Source of the DNA: Flavobacteriales bacterium | GTDB lineage: Bacteria; Bacteroidota; Bacteroidia; Flavobacteriales_G; JALEGO01 | Length of the DNA: 62,726 bases | Direction: 5' to 3' | NCBI GenBank assembly: GCA_020629755.1 | Contig: JAHDCS010000007.1 | Location: 1 to 62,726 of the forward strand | Shown here: in pieces, positions 15,151-61,313 of the stretch | Layout: every line of letters starts with the position of its first letter | Position numbering within the stretch: the first letter of the stretch is position 1 | Program-made: the position numbers and the translations under genes | The notes under the pieces: generated by a model | Told to the model about the DNA's origin: nothing | What the model saw: only the letters and a program-made list of their open reading frames with translations | Database searches by the model: none

Positions 15151-15221
15151 TTTTAATCAAGTGTAACCTTTTTATTTTTTTGGAGTAAAAGACTCTTTAG
15201 TAATCAGAAAAAACTATTGAG

Positions 15222-17615
15222 ATGAAACTCTTAAAACTATTATTATTTAACTTTTCTTTTTTTTCTTTAACTGCTCAGCCTGTTATTGAATGCCGTAGAG
15301 TATGTGTAGCGCATAGTGTTGGAGGTAGTTATGGCACGATGGAGCTTTTGTTTGACAACTTGCCTTCTGGATCATACAACATACATTTTGTAAGCTCTCC
15401 AGAACCTATGGCTGATATAACGCTTAATGCCTCTAATGATAAACTTATTATCCATAATTTGCCGTATGGCTGGTATGAAGTTATAGTGACCAGCTCTGGT
15501 GGTACAACATATAACACCACGTTTAATGTTATTGATGTGATCAAATCAACATCTTTTAATACTTTGCCCGCTGGCGGTTGCTTGTCGACCCTTGAGATCA
15601 CCCAAGAATACCAAAGTTGGCTCAATTGCCAATGGTCAGATTGGCAGTACTCATCATTGCAGATTGAAATTGTAGCAGGACCATCTAATGTGGGGCATAT
15701 TGAGTCTAAGAGTATCGGTATAAGCTCTAGTGTGGTTACAAGAGATTTTACCTTTTCTAATTTAACTCCCGGGACTTATACTTTTAGGGTATATGATAGT
15801 TATAAACCAAATAAATTTAATGAATACACCTATGAAGTTGTTTCTGTAGGAGGAGGGATAAGTGTAAATATTAATGAAACGCAATTGAATAGCGGAGTTA
15901 ATTTAACCGCATCTGCTTCTGGAAGTGGCTCTTATACCTATCAATGGGATGATCCATCTTCTAGCACCAGTGCAAGTATTATGGTTTCTGATCCAGGTAC
16001 TTATTGTGTAAGTGTAACAGATGCTAGTGGGTGTTCTGGTACAGAATGCCACGTTGTTCAAATAGATACAACCCCTCCTCCATGCGACATCGAAGCATTT
16101 GTGAATCTTCAAGCTACTGGCGGTGGTGGAGGCAATCGAATGTCTGGTGAAGTGTTAGAGGCTACCTATACAGGAGGTGCGGCGCCAGTGACATATTTGT
16201 GGGATGATCCTTCTGCCAGCACATCTAGTACAATTACAGTGGCTACGGATGGCACCTATTGTGTTACTATTACGGATGCTAACGGATGTACGGCTTCAGA
16301 TTGTTATACAGTATTGCCTGATACAAATACCCCTCCTCCATGCGACATCGAAGCATTTGTGAATCTTCAAGCTACTGGCGGTGGTGGAGGCAATCGAATG
16401 TCTGGTGAAGTGTTAGAGGCTACCTATACAGGAGGTGCGGCGCCAGTGACATATTTGTGGGATGATCCTTCTGCCAGCACATCTAGTACAATTACAGTGG
16501 CTACGGATGGCACCTATTGTGTTACTATTACGGATGCTAACGGATGTACGGCTTCAGATTGTTATACAGTATTGCCTGATACAAATACCCCTCCTCCATG
16601 CGACATCGAAGCATTTGTGAATCTTCAAGTTACTGGCGGTGGTGGTGGTAACCGCATGTCTGGTGAAGTGTTAGAGGCTACCTATACAGGGGGTACGGCG
16701 CCTGTGACATATTTGTGGGATGATCCTTCTGCTAGCACATCTAGTACAATTACAGTGGCTACGGATGGCACCTATTGTGTAACCATTACGGATGCGAATG
16801 GATGTACAGCTTCAGATTGTTATACAGTATTGCCTGATACCAACACAAATAACCCGGGTTGTGATCTTGAAGCGTTTGTAAATATAGTACCTGGAGGCGG
16901 CGGAAATCGACTGTCTGGTGATATGTTAGAAGCCACCTATACAGGAGGCACAGCGCCTGTGACTTATTTGTGGGACGACCCTAATGGCAGCACTTTAAAT
17001 AGCATAGTCATTCCTGGTCCTGGCACCTATTGTGTTACTATTACAGATGCCAATGGATGCACGGCTTCAGATTGTTATATTCTTACACCAGATAGTTTAG
17101 GTACAGGTTGTGATTTTGATGTGGTTGTAGATGTGCACAAATGTGCGGAGAGTTTGTGTTTAACTGCTCATCCTTCAGGAAATGGTCCTTATCTATATGA
17201 ATGGAACGACCCTGATAATACTAGAAGGCCTTTGCTTTGCGTAGACTCTGGCATGTATACCGTTAAGGTTACTGATGTTACTGGGTGTTCTGTGTATAGA
17301 GATGTAGAAGCAGTGTTAGATCCTTCTGACTCTACACTTTTAAGTGCCTTTTTTGATGCGCCTGAAGATATGCAAACTTTTAGTGTGTATCCTAACCCAG
17401 CATATAACCGCATTTACATAACGGCTAATTTTGATATGCAATCGCCAGTTATAGGTTTGTTTGATCTGACCGGTAAGCAGTTAAATGCGCCTCTTAGTAC
17501 ATCACTCTCTAATGTGTTTGAGCTTAATCTTTCGGGGATTGTTTCTGGCATGTATATTCTTAGGGTAGAGTCTGAGGGTAAAATCATGACAAAATCTATC
17601 TCTGTTGTTCAGTAG
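15222..17615 (+). CDS. Secreted repeat protein with T9SS type A sorting domain
   Basis: 797 residues. Signal peptide to LTAQ, then two beta-rich N-terminal domains, then a run of about six Ig-like modules. The modules contain TYLWDDPSASTSS and TYCVTITDANGCTASDC, the SprB/HYR-like pattern of flavobacterial surface proteins. Each module carries paired cysteines. The C-terminus (FSVYPNPAYNRIYI, then SGMYILRVESEGKIMTKSI) is a type A T9SS targeting signal. It should be exported across the outer membrane and attached to or released from the surface. Three modules are near-identical at DNA level. A hairpin terminator follows. Confidence 0.85.
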   Translation: MKLLKLLLFNFSFFSLTAQPVIECRRVCVAHSVGGSYGTMELLFDNLPSGSYNIHFVSSPEPMADITLNASNDKLIIHNLPYGWYEVIVTSSGGTTYNTTFNVIDVIKSTSFNTLPAGGCLSTLEITQEYQSWLNCQWSDWQYSSLQIEIVAGPSNVGHIESKSIGISSSVVTRDFTFSNLTPGTYTFRVYDSYKPNKFNEYTYEVVSVGGGISVNINETQLNSGVNLTASASGSGSYTYQWDDPSSSTSASIMVSDPGTYCVSVTDASGCSGTECHVVQIDTTPPPCDIEAFVNLQATGGGGGNRMSGEVLEATYTGGAAPVTYLWDDPSASTSSTITVATDGTYCVTITDANGCTASDCYTVLPDTNTPPPCDIEAFVNLQATGGGGGNRMSGEVLEATYTGGAAPVTYLWDDPSASTSSTITVATDGTYCVTITDANGCTASDCYTVLPDTNTPPPCDIEAFVNLQVTGGGGGNRMSGEVLEATYTGGTAPVTYLWDDPSASTSSTITVATDGTYCVTITDANGCTASDCYTVLPDTNTNNPGCDLEAFVNIVPGGGGNRLSGDMLEATYTGGTAPVTYLWDDPNGSTLNSIVIPGPGTYCVTITDANGCTASDCYILTPDSLGTGCDFDVVVDVHKCAESLCLTAHPSGNGPYLYEWNDPDNTRRPLLCVDSGMYTVKVTDVTGCSVYRDVEAVLDPSDSTLLSAFFDAPEDMQTFSVYPNPAYNRIYITANFDMQSPVIGLFDLTGKQLNAPLSTSLSNVFELNLSGIVSGMYILRVESEGKIMTKSISVVQ
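16072..16845 (+). repeat. Three 258-bp tandem repeats, first two identical
   Basis: Copies begin at 16072, 16330 and 16588, each starting CCCCTCCTCCATGCGAC and coding 86 residues. I see no difference between copies one and two. Copy three differs at scattered sites, for example AGTTACTGG for AGCTACTGG. A fourth, diverged module follows. The pattern indicates recent duplication or gene conversion. Confidence 0.9.
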
Positions 17616-17789: not shown

Positions 17790-20700
17790 TTGAATACACG
17801 ACTACCTTTATTTATTGTTATTTCTTTGTGTCTGTTGAGTGTTTCGCTTAGCGCGCAATGCACTCTGGGTATTTTATCTGCAAACACGACCAATTCGACT
17901 TGCAGTAATGGAAGCATCAGCATTAGTGTAAGTGGTGGTACACCGGGGTATATCTATGAAATTTATTCAGGACCGGCCGGTTTAAATTACCCTATTCAGC
18001 ATGCCACTTCTTCAACATCATATACTTTTTCTTCTCTACCTTCTGGTTCTTATGGCATATACGTGTATGACAGTAATACGCCAAGCGCTTGTACAGATTC
18101 TCAAACAGATGTTGTAGTAGGAGGATCTTATACCCCAATGAACCCTTCGGTGTCTGTTGTGTTGCCGCCTTGTTCATCCACAGCTCAGGTGTCAGGTAAT
18201 CCTGGTGGCGGATCGCCGCCATATAGTTTTGAATTGCTTGATTTAAGTAATAATGTGCTGCAAGGGCCTATATCGTCTTCTTCTATCCATACCTTTACGG
18301 GCGTTTCACCTGGGTCTTATAAAGTAAGAATAACAGATAATTGCGGCATAGGCTTAATATCATCTGCATTTGTCAATAATCCAAGCACTGGATTTGATTT
18401 GGTGACACAAAACCTAGAAAAAACATCCTGCGGATCGGTTCAATTAAATGTAGATGCTATTAGTACACCTAGTGGGTCTGCTTTAAATCAACCCTTGCAA
18501 TATACAGCTACTGGGCCTACGACGATTGGCCCTCAAGTATCGCCTGTATTTAATTTACCTCAAACAGGTACTTATACTATAAACGCTACCGATGCTTGTG
18601 GCAATACAGATGCGCTTACAGGCATCAATACAGTGCCTCAAATTGTAGGCTTTCATCAAGATAAATGCGATGGCACCTTTAATTTGCAAATTGCACCTGG
18701 TGATGTAAATCTTTGGCTAGGCGATGTGGAATATAAAATTACAGGACCTACTACTACAGGGTGGCAAACTACAAATGTATTTACATCAGTATCTACAGGC
18801 ACCTACACACTTAGTGTGAGAGATGACTGTGGCTATCAGCAAGATATTACGGGCTATGTAGTCAATAGTTCAACAGCCGGAAGTCCAGGAGGCCCGGTGA
18901 TTAATAATGTATCGCAGTCGGGTGATCCAGGCGACTACACCCTTAATGTAGATGGTTTGGGTGATTTTTACCAAATTGTTTCTGGGCCAGTAACTACAGG
19001 GCTACAAACCACTGGTGTATTTGAAGATTTAGTGGCGGGAACATATGTGATTGAAGTGACTAAAAATTGTTCAACCATTGATACCACAATAACCATAGAT
19101 GCAACTTGCCCTTCACTTGAGCTTGAGTATTTTTATTTTGATATCAATTGTTCTGAAGTTGCACAACTTAGATTCTCTGATTTTGGAGACATTGATTCAT
19201 TGATTTTGTTGAGTGGCCCAACTACGCCTAAAATGCAAATTGGAAAATCATATGTTATTGATCATGATTTTCTAAACATACCACATGGGCAATATGAAAT
19301 TTTATTTAAAAATTCTTGTGATTCGGTAATTCAGATCTTTGATTTCACCCCTTCATCTGAAAAACCAGATTTAATATGTGTGAATCAAAATAGATTAAAC
19401 TTTAATTATATTTCAGGTGTAGAAACTATATCTATTCAAGTAGATTTTATATTTGAAGAGCCATTAATAGGTAGACCTATTAGGTCGATAAGTTATATTG
19501 AATCACCTACAAGTGAATTACCTAAACACATTGGTCATGGTTCTTCACCCAATTTAGCACCATACAGTTACCGTGATCATACTTTTGATTTTTGGGAATT
19601 TGGACACTATAAAATTGTAGTTGAATATAATGGATGTAATCTATTTGATACTTTAGAATTTGATCTTTTGCCTAATGAATATTCTATTTCACAATTATGT
19701 GATGGATTATATAGTATAGAAGCAACATCTTATTTTGACTACAGCCATGAATTCATAAATATTTCTGGTCCAACACCATTAGCTCCTGATGTTATTAGTG
19801 GTTCTTATAATCTATTTGAAGATATTAGGATTGGGTGTAATTCATCAAAAACAACAACTTTAGTTGATTCAATTACATTAGGGGGTGTTCCAGATGGTAT
19901 ATATTTGATCGATTTATTAACACCATTTGGTGATCCTTATCCTAAATTAAGAGACACCATCCAGGTAGGTACAAGCTCAACAGCCCTAAATCTTGATGTG
20001 AGCGGTGTAATCTGTAACGCCTCTACTGGCGAAATTTTTGCCAATGCCTCCGGCTCAGACGGTAATTACACCTATAAAATACGTGTGCAAGGCTCAGGCT
20101 CTTGGACGACTCAATCTGATCCTTTATTTACAGGCCTTACAGGCAATACCACCTACGAAGTACAAGTCGAAGATGGATGTGGCAATCAAATCACTAAAAC
20201 ATATACCTTAGTACCCTATGGCGATGGAGGCATTCATGACAATTCAGATTGTATCAATAAAATTATAGATGTATATGCCGATACCTTACCTGGGGCTATT
20301 TATACCTGGACGGGGCCAAACGGCTTTTATTCAAATAGCCGTTTTGTATATATTAATCCGTTTACAGCGCTTAACGAAGGCGATTACACCCTTCAGGTGC
20401 AATATGAAGATTGTATCGACGATAGTTACGTTATAAGCATTGGAGGCAGCCCATCTGTATCAAATACTACATCAGCTAGTGCTTTGTGTGAAAATGGCAC
20501 GCGTACACTTACCGGAACGCCAGCAGGAGGCACATGGAGTATTGAGTCAGGCGGTGGCTCTATTTCTGGCTCTACCTACTCGGCACCTAATATTTCTAGT
20601 GCTACTACCGTTACTATTCGCTATACCTATAGCGATGGCTGTGCAAGTGGGTCAGATGATGTGTCTTTTTCAATTATCGATAATGTAACGAATGGCGGCT

Positions 20701-23700
20701 TAATTGGTAATTCACAATCGAATTGTGGGGAGTTTAATCCGGCGGCATTCACAAACACTGGAGCAGCTAGTGGTGGCTCAGGCGCTACCATTACATACCA
20801 GTGGCAGCAATCATCTACTGGCACAGGGGGGTGGTCAGATATATCTGGGGCTACCTCTGCGACCTATAATCCGCCAATGGTAAGTACAACAACCTATTAT
20901 AGAAGACGCGCAAAAAGAGGGTCATGCACATCTTGGGTAAATTCATCAAATACCGTTAATGTAACCATTACTGGAGGGCTTACGTCTGCAGGAAGTATTG
21001 GTAGTGATCAATCAAACTGTGGAGGCTTTGATCCAAGCCTTTTAACCAACATTTCATCGCCTTCAGGCGGCTCAGGCACCATAGAATACCAATGGCAAAG
21101 TTCACCTAATGGGGCTACTTGGAACAATATATCAGGCGCTACCTCTGCAACCTATAATCCCCCCAACATTACATCAACAACGTATTACAGACGAAATGCA
21201 AGAACTGTAGGCTGTGCGTCTTGGTCAAGCACGACTTCAGTTGTTGCAACGGTCACACAAAATGTAAGCTCTGCGGGCAGTATTGGTAATTCACAAGATA
21301 ATTGTGGCGGCTTTAATCCATCCACATTCACAAGTCTTTCGGCTGCATCAGGTGGCTCAGGTTCTGTGCAGTATCAATGGCAAGTCTCTAATACCGGAAT
21401 GGGTGGTTGGTCAAACATATCTGGGGCTACCTCTGCAACCTATAATCCCCCCAGCATCACATCAACTAAGTATTATAGAAGAAATGCCCGAACAACAGGG
21501 TGTGCAGCTTGGGAAAATTCGAATACTGTAAGTGCTGAGGTTTTCAGCTTACCCTCTAATGCATCGACCAGTAAAACAAATCCTACAACCTGCGGAGGCA
21601 ATAATGGGTCTATCACGGTGAGTGCGCCGAGTGGTGCTAATATTCAATACAGCAGAAACGGCGGAACAACTTGGCAAAGTTCAAATACCTTTACGGGGCT
21701 ATCGGCAGGCACTTATCAAATACGCGTGCGCAACACTTCTACCGGATGTCTCTCTGCTTCAAATGTGTCGGTTGTATTATCGGATCCTTCAGCGCCTTCA
21801 GCGCCTTCAGCAAGTAGTAGTCAGGTTTTTTGCTCAGGCGGATCAGCAACTGTTGCTGATTTACAAGCCACAGGTACTAACATTCAGTGGTATGGGTCAG
21901 TGTCTAGTACAATACCATATACCACCTCTACCGCGCTAATAGATGGTAATACCTATTATGCTTCGCAAACAGTAGGCGGATGCGAAAGTAACAGAACAGC
22001 CGTTACAGTTTCTCTTTCAGATCTTGTAGTAAATGCAGGGGCAAACACGACCATTTGTGAAGGACAAAGCACAACCCTTTCAGCAAGTGCTTCATCTGGT
22101 CAAGCGCCTTATACCTATACCTGGGATAGTGGATTAGGCTTAGGGCAATCTCACTCTGTATCGCCTACGCCTTCTGGTTATGCCAATCAAACCTTTACCT
22201 ACACGGTATCTGTCTCAGACAATAACGGCTGTAGTGGTAGCGATGATGTTACTGTTACAGTACGCTCTTTGCCACAGGTTACAACTTCAAGTCAAGAGCC
22301 TTTATGCGCAAACTCAGATGGGTCTATAACCTTCACATATGCTGACCATCCAAATAGATCTAGTATAGAATTTAGCATTTCAGGTGTTTCTGGGCCTTAT
22401 GTTTCAAGACCTGATAATTCTGGTAGTTATACTTTTAGCGGTTTGGATGCCGGGAGTTATGATTTATATGTTAGATGGGGGGATGCTAGTTGCCCGAAAG
22501 ATGTTTCAGATATAACGTTAACTGCTCCGCCAGACTTACATTCAGTACTTGATGTGTATACACCTATTTTATGTTTTGGTGATTCTTCAGCAGAAATTGG
22601 AGTTAAAGTTTTGGTCGGAGGAACACCGCCGTACAGTCAGATAAATTGGTATTCTGGGAGTATAGACCCATCAAATGAAATTATAATTAATACAGCTACT
22701 TCAAATGGCGGATCGTATACGGATAGTTTACATGTTAGTGGATTACCCACTGGCACGTATATTCTTGAAGCAATAGATGCCAACGGATGTCAAAAGTTAG
22801 ATACTCAAATCATATCTACCACCCTTACGCCTTTCAGTATAACGACTAATGGTGTTGATGCGACCACTAATGGTGGTACAGATGGATCTGCAAGTGTAAG
22901 TGTTACGGGCGGTACGCCGATGTATTCATACGAGTGGCCTAATGGGTCTACCTCAGCTAATGCAACAGGTTTGTCTGCCGGCACTTATATAGTTACTATT
23001 ACCGATGATAATGGATGTAAAGACACAGCATCTGTTGTTATAGATGAACCAAGTTGTGGTGGATTCTCTGTAGGAATTGCCTCAAGTGCAAATGTGAGTT
23101 GTTTTGGTTTAGACGATGGCGCTATTGATGTCACTCCATCAGGAGGGGTAACGCCTTACACATATCAATGGTCAAACGGAGAGACAACAGAAGATTTAAG
23201 TGATTTGCCTTTAGGAGATTATACGTTAACAGTTACAGATGCAGTGGCCTGTGAGGTTGTAAGCACTACTCTCACCATCAAAGGACCATCTGCTCCTTTG
23301 TCACAAACTACATTGCAGACAAACGCCACTACCTTTGGAGGTAATGAAGGCACAGCGTCTATATCTGCAGCTGGAGGCACCACTCCTTACAGCTATTTGT
23401 GGTCAACAGGCGCTACCACTTCAAGTGTTTCAGGACTTTCTGCTGGCACCTATACCTTTACAGTTACCGATGCGAATGGTTGTACCAGTGATGGAGAGGT
23501 TACAATAGAAAATCCAGATTGTAAAAACCTTACCGCAACCCTAACGGCAAGCACCGATGTGTCTTGCTTCGGGTTGAGTGATGGTGAAATTGACCTGTCG
23601 CCAAGCGGGGGCACTCCACCATATACCTACAATTGGTCAAACGGACAGGCTACACAAGATATATCTAATTTACTTGCCGGCACCTATTCGGTTACGCTTA

Positions 23701-25454
23701 CCGATAGTATTAATTGTGCAGACACGATCAAGGCCGTTACTATTTCACAACCTAGCGCCCCGCTCTCACTATCTATTCAAACCCAAGATGCACTTTGTTT
23801 TTCAGTGGCCAGCGGATTTGCTGAAGTCACACCTAGTGGGGCTACTTCGCCTTACACTTATGACTGGAGCGGCAGTGCCTCAACAGCAGATACAGCCAAT
23901 GACTTACTGTTTGGTTCTCATCAAGTGATTGTTACCGATCAGAATGGATGTCAAGATTCACTTTCTTTTAGTATTGATCAGCCCTCTAATTTAATCACTT
24001 CAGTCATTGCCACGAATCCTAGATGTTTTGGGGAATCCTCAGGCGATGTATCGGTGGTAGCACTTCAAAACACTGCCACTCCTCCTTTTTCATTTACTTG
24101 GCCAACCGGATTTAACAACAGCACCGAGTTTGATGTAAGCGGCACCAGCTTATCCATCCATGAAAACTTACCAGCAGGCAGTTATACCGTTACAGTCACT
24201 GATGCAAATGGGTGTAATTTTGTGGCCACTACCGGCATTACAGATCCCCCCAAATTAGAAGTAGAAAATATAAGTATACAAGAAGAAGACTGTGGTTTTG
24301 AGAATGGCCAAATTGTAGATACAGCTTATGGCGGCACTGCGCCATTGAGTTACCTCTGGACGGTTTCAGGGCAAACTACACCTATTAATAACAATGTGCC
24401 TGGTATTATAGATACGCTTATTGTGACTGATTTTAATGGATGTGTAGACTCTCTAGTAACCGACTTGCCGGCCATTTACAATATAGAAACCCAAAGCCTA
24501 TTAACGCAAACCACCTACGCGTGTGCGTATGACACCATTACCCTGAATGTAAGCAGCAACGGCACCATAGATTCTACAGTATGGTCGGTGGCCAGCAATT
24601 TAGACACCAGCATTACTTTTGTGCCTACAGCAGAAGACACACTAGTATACGTAGAGATATTCAATGAAAGATGCCGAGCATCAGACACATTACAATTAGA
24701 CATTATACCACTCCCAACTCTAGAGATTACAGGCGATACTATTTTATGTGCATTCAATCAAGGTAATTTAACCGCTCAAAGCAATACCGCCACCCAGTAT
24801 CTATGGAATACATCAGATACGACGCAAAGCATTGAGTTTATAGTTGATACCTCTATGTCTGGTGTTTTTACTGTTACAGTAACAGACGATTTTGGCTGCT
24901 CTGTAAATAATGACAGCTTGCCTTTAATATTAACCATATTGCCTTCGCCAACCGCACAGTTTGACACAATTGTAAACAGTATTTTTCCAGATGAAGTGAT
25001 GTTTATAGACAGTTCGTATAGCGATATTGTGTCGTGGAGCTGGGATTTCGGAGACGGGTGGGACGCGTCGATTCCTTCACCAAAACATTTGTATACCACT
25101 GCGGGCACATTTGAAGTTGTGTTGATGGTTGAAAATAGCGATGGGTGTACAGATAGAGATACGGTGATTCTTGAGATAGAAGAGCTTCTAGAAATACCTA
25201 ACGTATTCACCCCCAATAATGATGGGTACAACGATTTGTTTTACATCCGTTCTGTTGGCATGCAAGAGTTTGATCTTATGATTATGAACCGATGGGGCGA
25301 AGTTATTTTTACCTCAACATCAAACAGATTGGCCTGGGATGGCACCTCTCAAAGTGGTCTAGATATGCCAGAAGGCACCTATTTTTACATGCTAAAAGCA
25401 GTAGGCTCAGAGCTCTATGAGCGTCAAGGCACGGTGAGTTTGCTAAGAGATTAA
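17790..25454 (+). CDS. Giant SprB-like repeat protein with gliding-motility C-terminal domain
   Basis: 2554 residues from a TTG start that yields a clean signal peptide (SLSAQ). The N-terminal part repeats modules ending GTYTLSVRDDCG. Residues about 443-723 are an AT-rich, non-repetitive stretch. Around residues 970-1250 three ~90-residue copies share YQWQ, SGATSATYNPP and TYYRRNAR. Then come SprB repeats such as VSCFGLDDGAIDVTPSGG and SYLWSTGATTSSVSGLSAGT. A PKD domain (WSWDFGDGWDASIPSPKHLY) precedes a CHU_C/T9SS type B C-terminus (NVFTPNNDGYNDLF, NRWGEVIF, PEGTYFY). It is predicted to be a T9SS-exported adhesin. In relatives SprB itself drives gliding, but motility cannot be inferred here. 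Confidence 0.88.
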   Translation: MNTRLPLFIVISLCLLSVSLSAQCTLGILSANTTNSTCSNGSISISVSGGTPGYIYEIYSGPAGLNYPIQHATSSTSYTFSSLPSGSYGIYVYDSNTPSACTDSQTDVVVGGSYTPMNPSVSVVLPPCSSTAQVSGNPGGGSPPYSFELLDLSNNVLQGPISSSSIHTFTGVSPGSYKVRITDNCGIGLISSAFVNNPSTGFDLVTQNLEKTSCGSVQLNVDAISTPSGSALNQPLQYTATGPTTIGPQVSPVFNLPQTGTYTINATDACGNTDALTGINTVPQIVGFHQDKCDGTFNLQIAPGDVNLWLGDVEYKITGPTTTGWQTTNVFTSVSTGTYTLSVRDDCGYQQDITGYVVNSSTAGSPGGPVINNVSQSGDPGDYTLNVDGLGDFYQIVSGPVTTGLQTTGVFEDLVAGTYVIEVTKNCSTIDTTITIDATCPSLELEYFYFDINCSEVAQLRFSDFGDIDSLILLSGPTTPKMQIGKSYVIDHDFLNIPHGQYEILFKNSCDSVIQIFDFTPSSEKPDLICVNQNRLNFNYISGVETISIQVDFIFEEPLIGRPIRSISYIESPTSELPKHIGHGSSPNLAPYSYRDHTFDFWEFGHYKIVVEYNGCNLFDTLEFDLLPNEYSISQLCDGLYSIEATSYFDYSHEFINISGPTPLAPDVISGSYNLFEDIRIGCNSSKTTTLVDSITLGGVPDGIYLIDLLTPFGDPYPKLRDTIQVGTSSTALNLDVSGVICNASTGEIFANASGSDGNYTYKIRVQGSGSWTTQSDPLFTGLTGNTTYEVQVEDGCGNQITKTYTLVPYGDGGIHDNSDCINKIIDVYADTLPGAIYTWTGPNGFYSNSRFVYINPFTALNEGDYTLQVQYEDCIDDSYVISIGGSPSVSNTTSASALCENGTRTLTGTPAGGTWSIESGGGSISGSTYSAPNISSATTVTIRYTYSDGCASGSDDVSFSIIDNVTNGGLIGNSQSNCGEFNPAAFTNTGAASGGSGATITYQWQQSSTGTGGWSDISGATSATYNPPMVSTTTYYRRRAKRGSCTSWVNSSNTVNVTITGGLTSAGSIGSDQSNCGGFDPSLLTNISSPSGGSGTIEYQWQSSPNGATWNNISGATSATYNPPNITSTTYYRRNARTVGCASWSSTTSVVATVTQNVSSAGSIGNSQDNCGGFNPSTFTSLSAASGGSGSVQYQWQVSNTGMGGWSNISGATSATYNPPSITSTKYYRRNARTTGCAAWENSNTVSAEVFSLPSNASTSKTNPTTCGGNNGSITVSAPSGANIQYSRNGGTTWQSSNTFTGLSAGTYQIRVRNTSTGCLSASNVSVVLSDPSAPSAPSASSSQVFCSGGSATVADLQATGTNIQWYGSVSSTIPYTTSTALIDGNTYYASQTVGGCESNRTAVTVSLSDLVVNAGANTTICEGQSTTLSASASSGQAPYTYTWDSGLGLGQSHSVSPTPSGYANQTFTYTVSVSDNNGCSGSDDVTVTVRSLPQVTTSSQEPLCANSDGSITFTYADHPNRSSIEFSISGVSGPYVSRPDNSGSYTFSGLDAGSYDLYVRWGDASCPKDVSDITLTAPPDLHSVLDVYTPILCFGDSSAEIGVKVLVGGTPPYSQINWYSGSIDPSNEIIINTATSNGGSYTDSLHVSGLPTGTYILEAIDANGCQKLDTQIISTTLTPFSITTNGVDATTNGGTDGSASVSVTGGTPMYSYEWPNGSTSANATGLSAGTYIVTITDDNGCKDTASVVIDEPSCGGFSVGIASSANVSCFGLDDGAIDVTPSGGVTPYTYQWSNGETTEDLSDLPLGDYTLTVTDAVACEVVSTTLTIKGPSAPLSQTTLQTNATTFGGNEGTASISAAGGTTPYSYLWSTGATTSSVSGLSAGTYTFTVTDANGCTSDGEVTIENPDCKNLTATLTASTDVSCFGLSDGEIDLSPSGGTPPYTYNWSNGQATQDISNLLAGTYSVTLTDSINCADTIKAVTISQPSAPLSLSIQTQDALCFSVASGFAEVTPSGATSPYTYDWSGSASTADTANDLLFGSHQVIVTDQNGCQDSLSFSIDQPSNLITSVIATNPRCFGESSGDVSVVALQNTATPPFSFTWPTGFNNSTEFDVSGTSLSIHENLPAGSYTVTVTDANGCNFVATTGITDPPKLEVENISIQEEDCGFENGQIVDTAYGGTAPLSYLWTVSGQTTPINNNVPGIIDTLIVTDFNGCVDSLVTDLPAIYNIETQSLLTQTTYACAYDTITLNVSSNGTIDSTVWSVASNLDTSITFVPTAEDTLVYVEIFNERCRASDTLQLDIIPLPTLEITGDTILCAFNQGNLTAQSNTATQYLWNTSDTTQSIEFIVDTSMSGVFTVTVTDDFGCSVNNDSLPLILTILPSPTAQFDTIVNSIFPDEVMFIDSSYSDIVSWSWDFGDGWDASIPSPKHLYTTAGTFEVVLMVENSDGCTDRDTVILEIEELLEIPNVFTPNNDGYNDLFYIRSVGMQEFDLMIMNRWGEVIFTSTSNRLAWDGTSQSGLDMPEGTYFYMLKAVGSELYERQGTVSLLRD
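20690..21540 (+). repeat. Three imperfect ~280-bp repeats within the giant adhesin gene
   Basis: Each copy contains a segment like CAATCATCNAACTGTGG, then TATCAATGGCA, ATATCTGGGGCTACCTCTG and TATAATCC(G/C)CC. They encode the Ig-like modules with TYYRR. Two copies carry AATCCCCCC at the same place, so those near-matches to the GGGGGGATG word are not independent. Confidence 0.7.
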
Positions 25455-53829: not shown

Positions 53830-54699
53830 TTATAATCGATACGTTAATGTAAATCCAGTTGCGGTTGCCGGAAATACTTGACCTGAGTTTAGCCCAATGC
53901 CAGGTTCAATACGCACGCCTAATAAAAGGTGCTTAAAAAGATTTTCTTTTTTAGAAAGCTGAAAATCAAGACCCAATGGTATATAGACTCTATAAATATT
54001 ATTTTGCACTAAATTGGTTTGAACATCTTCATGTAAATACTCGCCATCCCAATAGTTGTTTGAATACGGGCTAACGCTCAATTGGTTTTGAGTTTCGGCT
54101 ATAAAGTTTGAATGCGTATGACTATTTTTAGTAATGGTTTCTATATTGTTTATGCCAATCATAGCCTCAATACCTAATCCAAAATAGGCTTTAAATCTAG
54201 GTCTTTTCAAAGACGGCTGGTATAAAAACGCAGACGATAAAGTAATGCCCGATATATTCTTTTCTAAAGTGTAACTTTCATTATCGTAAATGTTTTCAAT
54301 TATAACGCCTCCAGCATTAGAACTAAAGGTGTCAGAATGGGCTAATGTTTCTTTATAAAGGCTGGCAAGCTGAAAACTTGAGGTAAAATAGCCAATGCTT
54401 CCTTCAATACGGGTGTTTTTATTTTCAAAACTAAATCCAGCATAATTTTTGTTACTATGACCACTTAACCAATGCTGTGAAGAATACCCTTCAAGATCAT
54501 TAGGTAATAAAGTACTATGAGGTAAATAGGCACTCATATTTGCACTAATATTGCCTCCATTTATTCCGATAGTCATAAACCCCATAAAAAAACCAGAGAG
54601 TTTATATGAATTTTCTTGATGTTTTGATGAGTCTATTTGAGAAAAAATAATAGTTGGAGCAAAAAGAAGTGCGATGATTAGAGATGTGAAATATTTCAT
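53830..54699 (-). CDS. Hypothetical outer-membrane protein
   Basis: 289 residues with a signal peptide (FAPTIIFSQ). Alternating hydrophobic strands and a C-terminal ATGFTLTYRL suggest a beta-barrel. No family recognised. It converges with the TonB-type gene, 22 bases apart, and lies 51 bases downstream of another small barrel-like gene in the same direction, so it may be the last gene of the minus-strand locus. Confidence 0.65.
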   Translation of the reverse strand: MKYFTSLIIALLFAPTIIFSQIDSSKHQENSYKLSGFFMGFMTIGINGGNISANMSAYLPHSTLLPNDLEGYSSQHWLSGHSNKNYAGFSFENKNTRIEGSIGYFTSSFQLASLYKETLAHSDTFSSNAGGVIIENIYDNESYTLEKNISGITLSSAFLYQPSLKRPRFKAYFGLGIEAMIGINNIETITKNSHTHSNFIAETQNQLSVSPYSNNYWDGEYLHEDVQTNLVQNNIYRVYIPLGLDFQLSKKENLFKHLLLGVRIEPGIGLNSGQVFPATATGFTLTYRL

Positions 54700-54750
54700 G
54701 TTTAATTTTTTAAGTGTTATGTATTATGTATTATAGATTGATTTTGAGCG

Positions 54751-55317
54751 TTAAAATTTATAAACCAATTGAAATTCTCCTCTTGGTTTAAAATGGCCTT
54801 CTAAGTCAAGCCTTTTTTTAAAGCCATCTTCAGTAAAGTTAAGGTTGAAGGTAATGCCTGGTAATGTTTGAAGAGCAGCATAAAATTTTTCTGAAAAATG
54901 ATATTGAACACCTAATAAGTAACCTATTTTAGGCCTTAGGTAAATGTTTGAGGTTTTTATATCTTCGGTATACTCAGTCTGGGCAAAAATTTTCTGATTA
55001 AGATAAGAAAGATAAAGAGAGGGTGCAAATCCGTGAATAAACCTCATTTTTTCACCTATTTCTTTTCTTTTTTCAAAGATTAATCCAAAGCTTCCGGCAA
55101 AACGACCTGATTTTGATACTGAATCTCGCTGCGTATCGATTCCAAAATCACCAAAGCGGTACTGGAGGTATTTGTTGGGCTTGGTGTTTTTTTTCAAGAC
55201 AAACCTAAAGGATTGTAAATCATATGTCCCAATACCAATCTCCATCTTTTTTTGGGAATACGAATTAAAGCAACAGACTAAAAAAGGTATAATTGATATA
55301 TACGTTAGTTTTTTCAT
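54751..55317 (-). CDS. Hypothetical outer-membrane beta-barrel protein
   Basis: 188 residues. Signal peptide (LVCCFNSYSQ), then strands such as YLQYRFGDFG and IGYLLGVQYHFSEKFYAAL, ending FQLVYKF with the terminal Phe typical of outer-membrane barrels. No family recognised. It lies 107 bases downstream of the SPOR barrel gene, and that gap holds no clear terminator. Confidence 0.65.
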   Translation of the reverse strand: MKKLTYISIIPFLVCCFNSYSQKKMEIGIGTYDLQSFRFVLKKNTKPNKYLQYRFGDFGIDTQRDSVSKSGRFAGSFGLIFEKRKEIGEKMRFIHGFAPSLYLSYLNQKIFAQTEYTEDIKTSNIYLRPKIGYLLGVQYHFSEKFYAALQTLPGITFNLNFTEDGFKKRLDLEGHFKPRGEFQLVYKF

Positions 55318-55424
55318 GAGAATAATGTTTAATTATAACTCACAAGCAAACAAACATCGTGCCAAAGAGATAAAAAGGTGTTTTTTTAAGAAAGAATTAT
55401 TGAGAAAGATGAATAGGCTTTACA

Positions 55425-58400
55425 TTATTCGGCACTATTCAAAAGCGCCTCAGCCTCATCAGCCGTTAAGAATTTACCAAAGTATTCGCCCACAACAACA
55501 ACAAAACCTTTATTAGGTATGTTTTCATTCTTTAAGAGCTGTTCTCTAAGGGCAATGGCGTCTTCTCGTTTTTTAAATTCGCCCATACACAGTCGTGTTA
55601 ATCCCTGAGGAGTTGGTGAAATTTCAACGTCAGGCAAGGCAGTTTTTACAGCCGCAATTTGATCTTGAGAGGCCGACGTGTTATAAGCGCCTACTTGTAC
55701 TTTAAAAAAGATCATATCTTTATTTATAGGTCTTTCTAAAAGATTAGGGTCATTAAACAGCGCGTTAATTGGAGCCTGGGCAGCTGTATTTTCTAGATCC
55801 TCAGAGGTTATGTTTTCAGAAGTATTTGTACTTTGATTTGTTTGATTACCTGGAGTCGCAGAATCATCTGTTTGCGGAAGTGCTTTGCCCTGATCTATGG
55901 CTTGTTGAATAGCCTCCATTTCTTCTTTTTCTTCGGCCTGAGATTTATTGATAAGCGCTTCAAGTTTTTCTTTATCTGTTTGTTCTTGGGGGGATGTGTT
56001 AGGGTCAGTGGTTTTATTTGCATTTTCAATAGCTTCTATTTCTGCACGCTCTTCAGCCTCAGATTGGGCAATAAGCGTCTCAAGTTTTTCTTGGGCTGAT
56101 ATTTGGGTGTCAGAAGACCCGGTTTTAGTAGAGTCAGAGTTGTTTAAGCTACTGTTTAGACTGTCTGATTCATTTTTGAATTTATTCTCTAGATTAATCC
56201 CTTTGCCATCCCCTTTGAAATTGATGTTTCGTTTACCTTCTTCAAATAAGAACGACACTTTAAATTCTTTTAGTCCATTAAAGTCTACCTTAAACTCTTC
56301 TTGACGCAATTTAAAATCCTCCCCAAAAACATTATTTACCCTAACACTATACAACCCAGACTGTGGCACAAAAAGTATAAAGTCGCCCTGCTTATCAGAT
56401 AAAGAAGCATAGGTGTTGCCTAGGCTGTCTGTGGCGGTGATACGGATGTTGGCAACAGATAAAAAGCCTTGAGCAGAAAACTCATCGCGTTTTAAATTAA
56501 TAGAACCATAAATTTTATTAGACTTAATATAAGGGACATATTGAGTTAAGTCATTGTCAATAGCAAGCTCAAACATTTCGCCCAGTTGGTTGATGTACTC
56601 GCCTCTAGTTTGGTCAGAAGCTTGGGTAGTCACGGTATATAATCCAGAGGGGATACGCTCGCAGGCCACTCTTCCAAAGCGATCGCTCATCAAGTTCACG
56701 GTGAAGTATTCGCTTGCCGAAATATTCATAGAATCTCTTTTGTTATCAATGGTTACCATCACATTTGGTATGCCGACTTCGTTTTCATCTTTTATTTTAT
56801 TCCCATTTAAATCTTTAAAAAAGATGATCTCAACATCTTCATAAGATTGACGGGGCTGATTAAAGTCAAAGACTTTTTTGATCCCGGCATTTAGATTAAA
56901 ATCAAAATAAGACGACGATAAGGCCTCGATGTCAGCACGTCTAAAGTAGTAAAGTAAAAAATTACCAGTAGCACTCCAGCCTTTGCCTAAGTCGTAATTA
57001 GCAAAGTTAAAGAAGGATACTCTTGAGATTCTATTATTGATATAATACCAAGCCGCAATGTTAGAGTTAATTGTTAAGCGGTTGTCTAGAAGGTTAAAGT
57101 TAAAATATGGATTGATGCGTATGCTTTTGCTGCCTCGCCCAGTTTCATTTAAATAGCGCTGAGAGGTAAAACTTGGCGCCCCATAGTAATAGCCTAAAAT
57201 AATACCATTTTTCTTAAACCGAGAGGTGAATAACACAGAAGCATTGATGTAAGGGTTTACATCAATAACATTTTGAGTGAACAGGTCATATTCGGTTACA
57301 TCGGTATACCCCACCTGAAGAGTGGTAGAGTTAGAACGGTCTCTGGTTTTTCTTCGATTGGCAGTAAAGGTGTAATTGTAATTATGACTTTTGAGCTGCG
57401 GTGTTGTAGTTAGCGCATGGTCAAAAGTGTAGTATTGATATCCCGGACCAGTGCTAATGCTTGTTCTTGGGCCTAAGGTTTTGTTGTATAATAAAGAGTT
57501 TACATGGTAGTTCCGTCTTCCGATGTTTTGTTTTTGAATGTTTTGATCTACAAATGATCGATTCGAATAATTGCCATTATAGTTAAAATTTAAGGAATGC
57601 GTGATGTCTTTAAATTTATAATTGGCAAAAACATTGTTGTTTAATAGTTCACCGCCAACATCTAAAAACCAGTCGCTGGTATAACGGCTTGTAATCAAAT
57701 ATTTTAAACGTTCAATACGTTTTGATGAAATCGAAATCATATGTGCATAAGCGGTTTTAGGGCTTGTGCCTTTTAGCGTTACCAGTGGTGTAGAAAATAC
57801 ACCCGTAAAGGTATTGTTTAACGCATTAACCGTGGCGCCTATACTTGGCGCAATGGTGTTGGTGAAACGCAAATCGTCTTTTCGATAAGTAAGCCCTCCG
57901 TGTAGGGTAATGTCTTTTTGAAGTTGATAAGAGCCTCTCATACCAGCAGTAAGCACTGGGCTAAATACATTCTGTGTGACGGCGCCAAATAAGTTATACT
58001 TACCCTTATGATACTCAAAACTACCACCTCTTCCGTTATATGGCAAAAACCATCCCGACATTACAATATCACCTAGTGTGGCAGTGTAAGAAGGCGTGAT
58101 GTAGCGCACAAACATTCTAGAGTACGTGTAATAATGCTCACCTGTAGAAAATGTAGTGCCAGTATTAAAAATATTAGGGTTAAAGAAAAAATACTGAAAC
58201 CGGCGTCTGTCTTTCAACAACAAAGTGCCTTTTACGCCTGCTTGCAATACAACCGGATAGTTGTTGGTTACAATATTAAACGCGTCTGCCCACACCACTA
58301 AAGGAGATTCATCTTCTATAAGTTTATTTCTGTGTACGCTGCGTACCTTTTCAAACCAAAAGTTAATGTTTTTACTCTTCACATCATCTTCGCCTTGTGC

Positions 58401-59303
58401 CTCAATCATTACTCTGTTGTCATTTAAACTCGGAAAGTATTCGTTACTCGGTATAAATTCAACATCTAAGCTTAAGGTAGTGTCTGAATATGGGGGGATG
58501 GTAATGCCAGATTCAATTTCTTTACTTTTAATGCCAGCAATTTGAATTTGAGACCCTAAGGTGGTTTTGAGTTTGATGTTTTCTTCAGCATTGCCTTTAT
58601 TTTCAAACGTAACGTTTAGCTGTTTAAGGGTGCTCTCTTCGTTGATTAAAACATAACGTTCATCTGAAGTGAGTTTCCAATCAGAAATTCTTGGCAGGTG
58701 TGCATAGGTGTATGCGGCCGGTATTAAGGGGATGTCTTCTTCGTCTACCAGCTCAACACTAATAACATAAGCGATACCTCCAACAGAGTTTTTTGGCATA
58801 GACAAACGAATAGGGATATTTTTTTGTTCACCAGGGCGAAGTGTAATCATAGGATTAGAGCGAATAGCCATAACACGCTTCCAGCCTTCTGGAAAAGAAA
58901 ACTTGAGCTGTCCTTCAAAGGGTTTTTGTGAATTATTACTGATGTTTAATACGTTAAAATAGATTTCTGAAGGATCGTGAATGGCTTTGTATTTCACGAA
59001 ATGTGCAAAGGCTTTATCCGTGGGGATTTTTCCTGAGAATAATTCTACTTTATTAATAGAGTCACTTGCGGTTACGGTTCCGGTTTCTTGTTTAATTTCT
59101 TCTGATTTAACTTTAGGGATAATGCTTGTGCCAGAAGCTTTCTGTTTCTGTATTACAGGGGTTTTTGAAGTAGAGTCGAGAGCTGAGGGTTCAGTGATTT
59201 GACTAGCAGCCGAGTCTAAAGGTGTTATTTGCGCTAGGCAGTCATTAAAAATGCCTATAGCTAACACACCTATGATTAGGTATTTTAAAATGTGTTTTGT
59301 CAT
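55425..59303 (-). CDS. Large outer-membrane barrel with chaperone-like N-domain and SPOR C-domain
   Basis: 1292 residues. Signal peptide (FNDCLAQ), then Ig-like domains (FEGQLKFSFPEGWKRVMAI, TLRPGEQKNIPIRLSMP) resembling NEW3 or periplasmic-chaperone folds. A barrel of roughly 500 residues with YTATLGDIVMSGWFLPYNGR and GGSFEYHKGKYNLFGAV follows. Next is a CNA-B/SdrD-like module (FFKDLNGNKIKDENEVGIPN) and a carboxypeptidase-regulatory-like module. A Glu-rich linker then carries two related segments (KLETLIAQSEAEERAEIEAI and KLEALINKSQAEEKEEMEAI). Residues from 1199 form a SPOR peptidoglycan-binding domain. The order of parts is like an usher with built-in chaperone and plug modules, but that is inference. 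Two small secreted proteins lie upstream. Confidence 0.7.
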   Translation of the reverse strand: MTKHILKYLIIGVLAIGIFNDCLAQITPLDSAASQITEPSALDSTSKTPVIQKQKASGTSIIPKVKSEEIKQETGTVTASDSINKVELFSGKIPTDKAFAHFVKYKAIHDPSEIYFNVLNISNNSQKPFEGQLKFSFPEGWKRVMAIRSNPMITLRPGEQKNIPIRLSMPKNSVGGIAYVISVELVDEEDIPLIPAAYTYAHLPRISDWKLTSDERYVLINEESTLKQLNVTFENKGNAEENIKLKTTLGSQIQIAGIKSKEIESGITIPPYSDTTLSLDVEFIPSNEYFPSLNDNRVMIEAQGEDDVKSKNINFWFEKVRSVHRNKLIEDESPLVVWADAFNIVTNNYPVVLQAGVKGTLLLKDRRRFQYFFFNPNIFNTGTTFSTGEHYYTYSRMFVRYITPSYTATLGDIVMSGWFLPYNGRGGSFEYHKGKYNLFGAVTQNVFSPVLTAGMRGSYQLQKDITLHGGLTYRKDDLRFTNTIAPSIGATVNALNNTFTGVFSTPLVTLKGTSPKTAYAHMISISSKRIERLKYLITSRYTSDWFLDVGGELLNNNVFANYKFKDITHSLNFNYNGNYSNRSFVDQNIQKQNIGRRNYHVNSLLYNKTLGPRTSISTGPGYQYYTFDHALTTTPQLKSHNYNYTFTANRRKTRDRSNSTTLQVGYTDVTEYDLFTQNVIDVNPYINASVLFTSRFKKNGIILGYYYGAPSFTSQRYLNETGRGSKSIRINPYFNFNLLDNRLTINSNIAAWYYINNRISRVSFFNFANYDLGKGWSATGNFLLYYFRRADIEALSSSYFDFNLNAGIKKVFDFNQPRQSYEDVEIIFFKDLNGNKIKDENEVGIPNVMVTIDNKRDSMNISASEYFTVNLMSDRFGRVACERIPSGLYTVTTQASDQTRGEYINQLGEMFELAIDNDLTQYVPYIKSNKIYGSINLKRDEFSAQGFLSVANIRITATDSLGNTYASLSDKQGDFILFVPQSGLYSVRVNNVFGEDFKLRQEEFKVDFNGLKEFKVSFLFEEGKRNINFKGDGKGINLENKFKNESDSLNSSLNNSDSTKTGSSDTQISAQEKLETLIAQSEAEERAEIEAIENANKTTDPNTSPQEQTDKEKLEALINKSQAEEKEEMEAIQQAIDQGKALPQTDDSATPGNQTNQSTNTSENITSEDLENTAAQAPINALFNDPNLLERPINKDMIFFKVQVGAYNTSASQDQIAAVKTALPDVEISPTPQGLTRLCMGEFKKREDAIALREQLLKNENIPNKGFVVVVGEYFGKFLTADEAEALLNSAE

Positions 59304-59358
59304 TTAAAAAGCGATCGCTAGCTTTTCAAATATACATTTTTTAGAAGGGTTTAGGGTT

Positions 59359-59961
59359 TTAGAGCCAATAAGATATGAACAGTAATACTTGAGGAACTGT
59401 TAATAAAAGCTCTATGTCTACCGTGTATAAATCAGGCGTCTGCCCTAAAAGGCGATTGCATGGAGGGAGAGGACATCCTGAATTATTCCCGCCACACTCA
59501 TATGAAATGTCAAGAATGGTTTGTTCAGGACCAGCCGCAATGGTATTTGGCACATGAAAGCCCGGAATAGTAGTGGCTAAAGCTTGATAACCAGAATTTA
59601 AAGCAACATATCCGCCGGTGGGGGTAAATTGAGGCGGATTTGGGGAATTATCTACAGAGCGCAATCTTAGTGTATTTAAAGGAAGAGATCCTCCAGCATC
59701 TCCATTAATAGCAGGTGTAATGGCTCTAAAATTTAACGTCCACCCAAGAATAAAGGTATCAATAGCGTCGACGGTTGTTTCTTGCATTTTAATTTTAATG
59801 CGTGTCCAATCCGTATAGGTGACACCATTTTCAAGCTTTGAAAATGAATTAAACACAAAGGGCACCAGATTGCCCTTTTCAATAAAAAAACCAGCGGAGT
59901 TCTGACCTAATAATAGCGAAGAGAAAGAGAAGAACAAGAAAGATATTAGCAGACGTATCAT
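59359..59961 (-). CDS. Secreted protein, possible surface subunit A
   Basis: 200 residues. Signal peptide ends LLLGQ. The mature part is beta-rich with FVFNSFSKLENGV, TRIKIKMQETTVDAIDTFIL, SLPLNTLRLRSVD and NRLLGQTPDLYTVDIELLL. These line up in order with segments of the 213-residue protein encoded just upstream. A Cys-containing loop (YECGGNNSGCPLPPCNR) is special to this one. It lies between that protein and the large barrel gene, in the same direction. It is likely exported or displayed, perhaps as a fibre subunit. Its promoter is the TATTTTTG box in the preceding terminator. Confidence 0.6.
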   Translation of the reverse strand: MIRLLISFLFFSFSSLLLGQNSAGFFIEKGNLVPFVFNSFSKLENGVTYTDWTRIKIKMQETTVDAIDTFILGWTLNFRAITPAINGDAGGSLPLNTLRLRSVDNSPNPPQFTPTGGYVALNSGYQALATTIPGFHVPNTIAAGPEQTILDISYECGGNNSGCPLPPCNRLLGQTPDLYTVDIELLLTVPQVLLFISYWL

Positions 59962-59973
59962 AATACTCTAAGG

Positions 59974-60010
59974 CAAAAATAAAAAAAGCCAGGCATAAAA
60001 CCTGGCTTTT
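59974..60010 (-). terminator. Terminator after subunit B gene, ending in a TATTTTTG promoter element
   Basis: On the minus strand AGCCAGG (60007-60001) pairs with CCTGGCT (59993-59987), followed by TTTTTTATTTTTG. The last eight bases, TATTTTTG (59981-59974), match the -7 element, and the next ATG is 12 bases on at 59961. Confidence 0.85.
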
Positions 60011-60035
60011 CATTTATATAACCTTTAAAACTAAA

Positions 60036-60677
60036 TTAGTCTGCAGGAACAAGCACTAAATAAACATTAGTAATATACCTGTCTTGTGCAATACTTTGTT
60101 GAAGTAAATTATCTTGACCAGTTACAGCAAGCAAATCTGGTGTGGCAAGTTCCCAGTTAATCGTAAAATCATTGTCATCAGTACCGCCTGCTGAAGAAGC
60201 AATATTAGAAACAATTTGTGTGGTATTAACATTGGTTAGCGCAACAATAGGTTCAGCAGCTGAAGGGATAAGATCCCAGTTTGTACCTTCCGCATATGAG
60301 CCTTGCTCATGTAATCGGTAACCTACATTATTTAAGTCTAAGGTGTTTACACTACCTGAAGCAGCAATGTCTGTACCTACAAAACAAGCATCTTCTGCAA
60401 ACATAAGGACATCAAAATCTCTAGAAGAAGCTACCGTGAAACGCGTATCATGAATTCTGTCGTTTGTTCCTACAGAAGGATTTTCAATGCCGTTAGTATA
60501 CTGAGAAATGGTATTGACCACAAATTCTACATTTCCTCCACTCACAACGTTTAGTCGCATTGTTGTATTAATGGTGATTGCAACGGGTATAACCGAGACA
60601 TCACTAATAGGCTGAGCCATAAAAGCGCTCGAAGCCATCGTAGCTCCAGCAATAAATAATGTTTTTAACTTTTTCAT
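60036..60677 (-). CDS. Secreted protein, possible surface subunit B (pilin-like)
   Basis: 213 residues. Signal peptide MKKLKTLFIAGATMASSAFMAQ. The mature chain is Asn/Thr/Val-rich and beta-predicted, with VEFVVNTISQYTNGI, HDTRFTVASSRDFDVLMF, NNVGYRLHE, FTINWELAT and a C-terminal strand YITNVYLVLVPAD. Size and composition resemble spore-coat-U/DUF4402-type fibre subunits, but I cannot assign a family. It is the first gene of a run towards the large SPOR barrel and has its own terminator, so it may be made in larger amounts than the genes after it. Confidence 0.6.
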   Translation of the reverse strand: MKKLKTLFIAGATMASSAFMAQPISDVSVIPVAITINTTMRLNVVSGGNVEFVVNTISQYTNGIENPSVGTNDRIHDTRFTVASSRDFDVLMFAEDACFVGTDIAASGSVNTLDLNNVGYRLHEQGSYAEGTNWDLIPSAAEPIVALTNVNTTQIVSNIASSAGGTDDNDFTINWELATPDLLAVTGQDNLLQQSIAQDRYITNVYLVLVPAD

Positions 60678-60809: not shown

Positions 60810-61313
60810 CTAGATGTAAATTAATTCAATGGCAATTTGGGTGTCTTGGTTTCCAGATACCTCAAAGCTGACGTCTCCAAAAGAGGGTTTTGAAAATCCT
60901 AACCCTGGATTATTAGAAAATCCAAAGCCTTCCGTAGGGATATTTAAAAAATTGGTATTAAGCTCTCCATCTTGATTTTTATCATGAAACATTGCAATGG
61001 CATATACTCCTGCTGGCACATCAGGAAAAGAGACTTCCATATTCTCACTTGTGATGGGCGCAGTATGACCAAGGAACGGATCACTTTCAGCATCAAAATT
61101 TGCTTCAGAACTATATAATGCTACCCTGAAATTACCTTCGATATTGTCAAACCCTTGAAGTAAAACTTTCAGTTCAGTGCCTGAGTCTCCACCATTGCCT
61201 TCAGCCGTTACTTTATCGACTGTAGATGGGTCAATGGGCTCATCATCCTTTTTGCAGGCAGTAAATAAAAGCGCGAAGAGAACGATGTAGGTTAATAAAT
61301 TATAATGTTTCAT
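60810..61313 (-). CDS. DUF2141 lipoprotein
   Basis: 167 residues. Lipoprotein signal with lipobox LFTAC (Cys20) followed by acidic residues. The DUF2141 core is clear: LQGFDNIEGNFRVALYSSE, DVPAGVYAIAMFHDKNQDGE, LNTNFLNIPTEGFGFSNN and FSKPSFGDVSF. The Asp-rich DKNQDGE may bind calcium. Function of the family is unknown. The 114 bases on its downstream side and the 132 before subunit B show A/T-rich sequence without a clear hairpin. Confidence 0.85.
   Translation of the reverse strand: MKHYNLLTYIVLFALLFTACKKDDEPIDPSTVDKVTAEGNGGDSGTELKVLLQGFDNIEGNFRVALYSSEANFDAESDPFLGHTAPITSENMEVSFPDVPAGVYAIAMFHDKNQDGELNTNFLNIPTEGFGFSNNPGLGFSKPSFGDVSFEVSGNQDTQIAIELIYI

Follow-up and report, generated by a model that had tools for sequence, protein, structure and literature searches.

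The locus examined here lies in a 62,726-nucleotide stretch of DNA from a Flavobacteriales bacterium (hereafter the window; GenBank assembly GCA_020629755.1, contig JAHDCS010000007.1, positions 1 to 62,726 of the forward strand). It raises the question of what a large outer-membrane barrel protein, encoded next to two small secreted proteins (S1 and S2), does for these proteins at the cell surface. The answer proposed is that the three genes, together with a separately encoded PapD-like chaperone, work like a chaperone-usher-type system for fibre assembly, and a probability of roughly 0.8 is assigned to this reading. It is built on the homology of S1 to a solved fibre protomer and to S2, the homology of the chaperone to PapD, the usher-like fold of the modelled large protein, the linkage of the genes and their co-occurrence across genomes, all of which were computed directly.

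Five open reading frames (ORFs), all on the minus strand, were present at 60036-60677, 59359-59961, 55425-59303, 54751-55317 and 53830-54699, as given in the initial annotation. The first three encode S1, S2 and the large protein, with the following features (Ig, immunoglobulin; CTD, C-terminal domain):

60036..60677, minus strand: S1, 213-amino-acid secreted fibre subunit and proposed major pilin, homologue of the TLP-1/TLP-2 protomer
60561..60614, minus strand: extension at the N-terminus of mature S1 (QPISDVSVIPVAITINTT), a candidate donor strand
59983..60011, minus strand: intrinsic-terminator-like hairpin in the S1-S2 gap, 12 pairs and U-run
59359..59961, minus strand: S2, 200-amino-acid secreted relative of S1 that lacks the N-terminal extension and is proposed as the tip (initiating) subunit
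55425..59303, minus strand: large protein, proposed usher, 1292 amino acids with signal peptide, Ig-like pair, barrel, two C-terminal Ig-like domains, linker and SPOR domain
58317..59012, minus strand: N-terminal pair of Ig-like domains in the large protein (residues ~98-329), a relative of the separately encoded chaperones
56868..58301, minus strand: beta barrel of the large protein, with 24-26 long strands at residues ~335-812 and no plug domain among them (DSSP of the model and Foldseek)
56238..56843, minus strand: two C-terminal Ig/CNA-B-like domains (large-protein residues ~821-927 and 929-1022), placed as CTD1 and CTD2 are in ushers
55437..55709, minus strand: SPOR-like domain of the large protein (residues ~1199-1289), which may anchor it to peptidoglycan; compact variants lack it

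S1 is in the same family as the protomer of the pond-water fibres TLP-1 and TLP-2. In a profile search of the PDB (hmmsearch), S1 matched 9ikk (TLP-2, E 1.7e-22) and 9ikj (TLP-1, E 6.2e-20) over its full length. The AlphaFold model of mature S1 reached a predicted local distance difference test score (pLDDT) of 88, and its sole match below E 0.001 in a structure search was 9ikj_A (E 1.2e-4, probability 1.00). Membership of the TLP-1 protomer family was thus found by full-length sequence and by fold, and it supports the earlier suggestion that the small proteins are fibre subunits. The two PDB entries are cryo-electron microscopy fibrils obtained from pond water by CryoSeek. The TLP-1 fibre is reportedly about 8 nm wide, the N-terminal strand of one protomer completing the barrel of another. 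Among the genomic relatives of TLP-2 that were found, the nearest five had 39-42% identity and the sixth 36%, and all six are encoded in clusters of chaperone, S1, S2 and large gene. The genomes with the 39-42% relatives belong to the same taxonomic order as the window. When only the TLP-2 sequence was searched across the phylum, no match was obtained in a sample that held none of these genomes, and this result therefore says little about distribution.

S1 and S2 are homologues (hhalign 99.2%, E 2e-19), as had been claimed for the two small proteins, and both have leaders of the signal-peptidase-I type without a lipobox cysteine, ending FMAQ/PISD in S1 and LLGQ/NSAG in S2. The N-termini of the mature proteins differ. 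The first 18 residues of the S1 monomer model had no secondary structure, and residues 3-24 of S1 were among the most conserved, with a mean column entropy of 1.12 bits versus 1.74 for the rest. Between leader and anchor glycine there were 24-25 residues in S1 and 9-13 in most S2 proteins, and in most loci S2 was about 13 residues shorter at the N-terminus. The exception was one genus in which S2 has an extension that contains cysteine and is unrelated to that of S1. From the sequences, S1 is proposed to be the polymerising subunit with a donor-strand-like N-terminus. Because S2 is without the conserved extension, it is proposed to accept but not donate a strand, as tip subunits of chaperone-usher pili do. 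The two proteins, initially put forward together as subunits for donor-strand exchange, are accordingly not equivalent: the donor-strand-like N-terminus is present in S1 and absent from S2. The gap between the two genes contains a hairpin (59983-60011) of 12 pairs followed by a T-run, and terminator-like hairpins, many of unrelated sequence, were present in 19 of 39 S1-S2 gaps. Such hairpins would raise the output of S1 above that of S2 and the usher, in line with the needs of a major subunit.

The modelled part of the large protein comprised 986 residues (AlphaFold; pLDDT 83, predicted TM-score 0.62). It showed about 230 residues of Ig-like structure, a barrel of 24-26 long strands at about residues 335-812 and then two C-terminal Ig-like domains. 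The claimed layout of this protein was recovered, with the barrel in the model and NEW3/FixG-type Ig, CarboxypepD_reg (E 1.4e-5), SdrD_B (E 0.0097) and SPOR (E 0.0042) domains in Pfam, all below gathering scores. In a Foldseek search of the model against 350,542 PDB chains the ten best matches were all FimD/PapC ushers (E 1.1e-11 to 6.4e-9, probability 1.00). As ushers ranked first, the barrel was not most like an ordinary receptor or porin, the result that would have told against the original suggestion. The model thus has the fold of an usher, with a barrel of about 24 strands and Ig-like C-terminal domains, at low TM-scores. The SPOR-like tail, which matched other SPOR-bearing proteins, was present in some lineages and absent from variants of about 930 amino acids; matches through SPOR only in the order-wide search were excluded as shared-domain noise. 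In two loci the large gene was split into two ORFs (L065:12247-15428, L071:11437-14924), whether through a frameshift, an error of assembly or decay.

A two-domain secreted protein of 250-300 residues was encoded near S1 in most relatives, at a distance of up to 9 kb in 34 of 44 loci. It was on the strand opposite S1 in 28 loci, and in six it ran in the same direction, as chaperone-S1-S2-large gene. By profile homology this protein is a periplasmic chaperone of the PapD superfamily. Its profile matched seven E. coli PapD-type chaperones at 91.6%, and with the enlarged family at 97.8% (E 4.5e-12, 231 columns); the score was 65, versus 4 for the reversed profile and at most 11 for 40 column-shuffled controls. 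The alignment spans both domains and the strand running into the motif RIKLYYRP. In classical chaperones the strand aligned there is the one donated to the subunit. PapD_N (PF00345) was not over the cut-off in 41 genomes of the order, and one family member was matched by it nearly end to end below the cut-off (E 0.03). Against PDB sequences the chaperone profile gave chance-level matches only, with the K88 chaperone FaeE at E 0.23. The same profile matched the N-terminal Ig pair of the large protein (hhalign 93.1%, E 4.7e-8) and gave no match to the rest of that protein; reversed and shuffled controls were negative. The initial annotation saw the order of a chaperone-usher system within one chain, and this was half right: the N-terminal Ig pair is chaperone-related, but the chaperone is a separate gene. 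In many loci the chaperone gene is adjoined by a gene for a MORN-repeat (PF07661) protein of about 380-400 residues (L203:8649-9785, L097:7789-8982, L023:3768-4988).

A search of named genomes with the S1 profile gave 38 loci, mostly from Flavobacteriales and environmental Bacteroidales. The order S1-S2-large gene was kept in these loci and around the large-gene orthologues of the taxonomic order: S1 and S2 were on the same strand in all 39 pairs, and the large gene was within 2.5 kb in all 31 loci with enough downstream sequence. The chaperone gene was mostly near, and the genes are therefore clustered. The small-protein genes thus do adjoin the orthologues of the large gene, as the first interpretation needed. 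Of the five-gene run that it described, all ORFs are real, but only S1, S2 and the large gene form the conserved system. In a sample of 395 genomes of the class, S1 was present in 48, the large gene in 50 and the chaperone in 58. The large gene occurred in 48 of 48 genomes with S1 and in 2 of 347 without it, and the chaperone in 47 of 48 with S1 and in 11 of 347 without it, the single exception being a genome of 60% completeness. The Fisher p value of 7e-60 for co-occurrence is inflated by the relatedness of the genomes; those with S1 span 29 genera.

Seven genomes of the class that had the chaperone and no S1 match were inspected and are called compact variants here. The large protein had no match at threshold in five of them (G061, G080, G255, G325, G379) and a weaker one in two (G340, G391). 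They contained pilin-like genes of about 180 residues, often in tandem, with a chaperone and a barrel protein that has no SPOR domain and is about 860-950 residues long. Some also encoded an adhesin-like multidomain protein of 341-478 residues with an S2-like C-terminal part, which fits the proposed role of S2 at the tip. The same pilin-chaperone-usher-adhesin arrangement is seen in classical operons. Within the compact variants, sets of three to five similar pilin-like genes, possibly alternative major subunits, were found close together (L194:8687-15817, L199:8983-11486, L201:4808-7520).

Several results weigh against assembly by an usher. PF00577, the usher sequence family, was found in none of the 41 genomes of the order, with a positive E. 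coli control. The large protein gave no sequence-level match to five E. coli ushers (hhalign, 0.1-1.8%), nor did S1 to E. coli FimA-type pilins (hhalign). The earlier prediction of a 24-strand barrel with a plug held for the strands and the usher-like fold but not for the plug: none was seen in the modelled barrel, in which the longest gap between strands was about 18 residues. The TM-scores to ushers were low (0.19-0.40), and the match is evidence of fold class, not superposition; LptD, BtuB and other large barrels followed at E 1e-8 to 1e-6. Because of these low scores and close followers, the usher match in the model could owe something to the barrel-plus-Ig layout. Finally, the chaperone is unlinked in the window genome, where it lies on another contig (G000 C77, 20646-21434, E 3e-59); it is also away from S1 in a sister genome (L203), and is thus unlinked in the genus.

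The alternative that survives best is that the large protein is an exporter or anchor of a kind other than an usher, for example for polysaccharide, for an S-layer or as a general porin, and that S1 and S2 form a surface layer or fibre that self-assembles or exits otherwise. The SPOR domain would suit an anchor, and barrels of the LptD, BtuB, AlgE and SlpA type also matched the model. Ushers outranked all of these barrels in Foldseek, however, S1 belongs to a solved fibre-forming family, and a PapD-type chaperone travels with the genes, with 48/48 co-occurrence. This explanation was therefore judged unlikely.

Export of S1 and S2 as type IX secretion system (T9SS) cargo, with the large protein as its surface or anchoring component, was considered very improbable. 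The genome is that of a Flavobacteriales relative, and many Bacteroidota have a T9SS (62% of the species in PMC4793230). No T9SS sorting domain was matched in S1, S2 or the large protein (Pfam, NCBIfam), however; S1 and S2 end in the last strand of the fold, and a dedicated chaperone and barrel are present. The need for an exit route other than T9SS, noted at the outset, is supported by the absence of a tail domain in these searches. A variant of the well-known type V (FimA/Mfa1) pili of Bacteroidota, for which strand exchange has also been proposed, can practically be dismissed, as the S1 and S2 leaders are of the signal-peptidase-I type, no Mfa/FimA structure was among the S1 matches (PDB profile and model searches), and in P. 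gingivalis no chaperone or usher has been identified (PMC5789003).

With chaperone-usher-type assembly as the preferred reading, the following sequence of events is proposed. S1 and S2 would be exported by Sec, and the PapD-like two-domain chaperone would hold each subunit by lending it a strand. The large protein, with its 24-26-strand outer-membrane barrel and Ig-like periplasmic domains, would serve as the usher. S2, having an acceptor groove and no donor strand, would exit first as the tip. S1 would then follow and polymerise, its N-terminal strand always completing the adjacent subunit, to give a TLP-1-like fibre. In the lineage of the window the usher may be anchored in the cell wall through its SPOR domain. 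Donor-strand exchange, the order of export, gating and the function of SPOR are the steps that we infer.

Other genes were seen around the locus. Upstream of S1 lies an accessory gene:

60810..61313, minus strand: DUF2141 secreted protein (PF09912, E 1e-32), whose place next to S1 is conserved in the window's own family alone (L021, L022)

Its product is secreted and lipoprotein-like. The two genes 3' of the large gene (53830-55317) encode small secreted barrel-like proteins without a family above the cut-off. They were not seen adjoining orthologues of the large gene in the neighbourhood comparison and were for this reason excluded from the conserved system. An ORF of 2554 residues is on the plus strand of the window (17790-25454). 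In several lineages, large membrane proteins with C-terminal TPR repeats are encoded directly beside the fibre genes (L086:7832-9748 and 14920-16836, L068:1287-5242, L070:5685-9820). Their N-terminal parts matched no Pfam family and read like TMTC/PMT-type glycosyltransferases, which would hint at glycosylated fibres.

Neither a curated family (Pfam, NCBIfam) nor a paper describing such a make-up, or a Bacteroidota chaperone-usher system, was found; only open-access literature was covered, and an earlier description elsewhere is possible. Within this scope the view that no described system has this make-up stands. Since the chaperone was recognised by homology and the usher by fold only, and the searches for a plug and for the usher sequence family were negative, the locus was filed as a new branch and not as a member of a described class. 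It probably represents a separate Bacteroidota chaperone-usher class, whose plug-less usher bears a chaperone-like module at its N-terminus and, in some lineages, a cell-wall-binding SPOR tail, and which makes fresh-water fibres of the TLP-1 type. If true, the pathway would extend to about one eighth of the sampled genomes of this class of Bacteroidota, with sequence families that go unrecognised by current annotation. The TLP-1 fibres would gain a candidate type of producer, a gene cluster and an assembly machine. Such a plug-less usher, with its chaperone-like module built in, would also offer a test of which usher parts are essential for gating and subunit hand-over.

With the chaperone-usher pathway (Fim, Pap; archaic Csu/CupE) the locus shares a two-domain chaperone of the PapD superfamily, an usher-like barrel followed by two Ig domains, a clustering of the subunit genes and the pairing of subunits that carry a proposed N-terminal donor strand with subunits that do not; the compact variants also have the pilin-adhesin arrangement. 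Unlike that pathway, it is without PF00577 or an above-cut-off PapD_N and without a plug in the modelled barrel; it has a chaperone-like Ig pair in place of the usher N-terminal domain, a SPOR tail in some members and pilins that are not recognisably FimA-like. It also occurs in a phylum outside the published range of chaperone-usher systems, which covers Proteobacteria, Cyanobacteria and Deinococcus-Thermus (PMC4654587). The type V pili of Bacteroidales (FimA/Mfa1) are likewise Bacteroidota surface fibres with proposed strand complementation, but they use a lipoprotein route and protease processing with no known chaperone or usher (PMC5789003), and no sequence or fold match to them was seen for the locus proteins. 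The likeness to the TLP-1/TLP-2 fibrils is that S1 of the window is a full-length homologue of their protomer, from which it differs as a more distant member of the same family.
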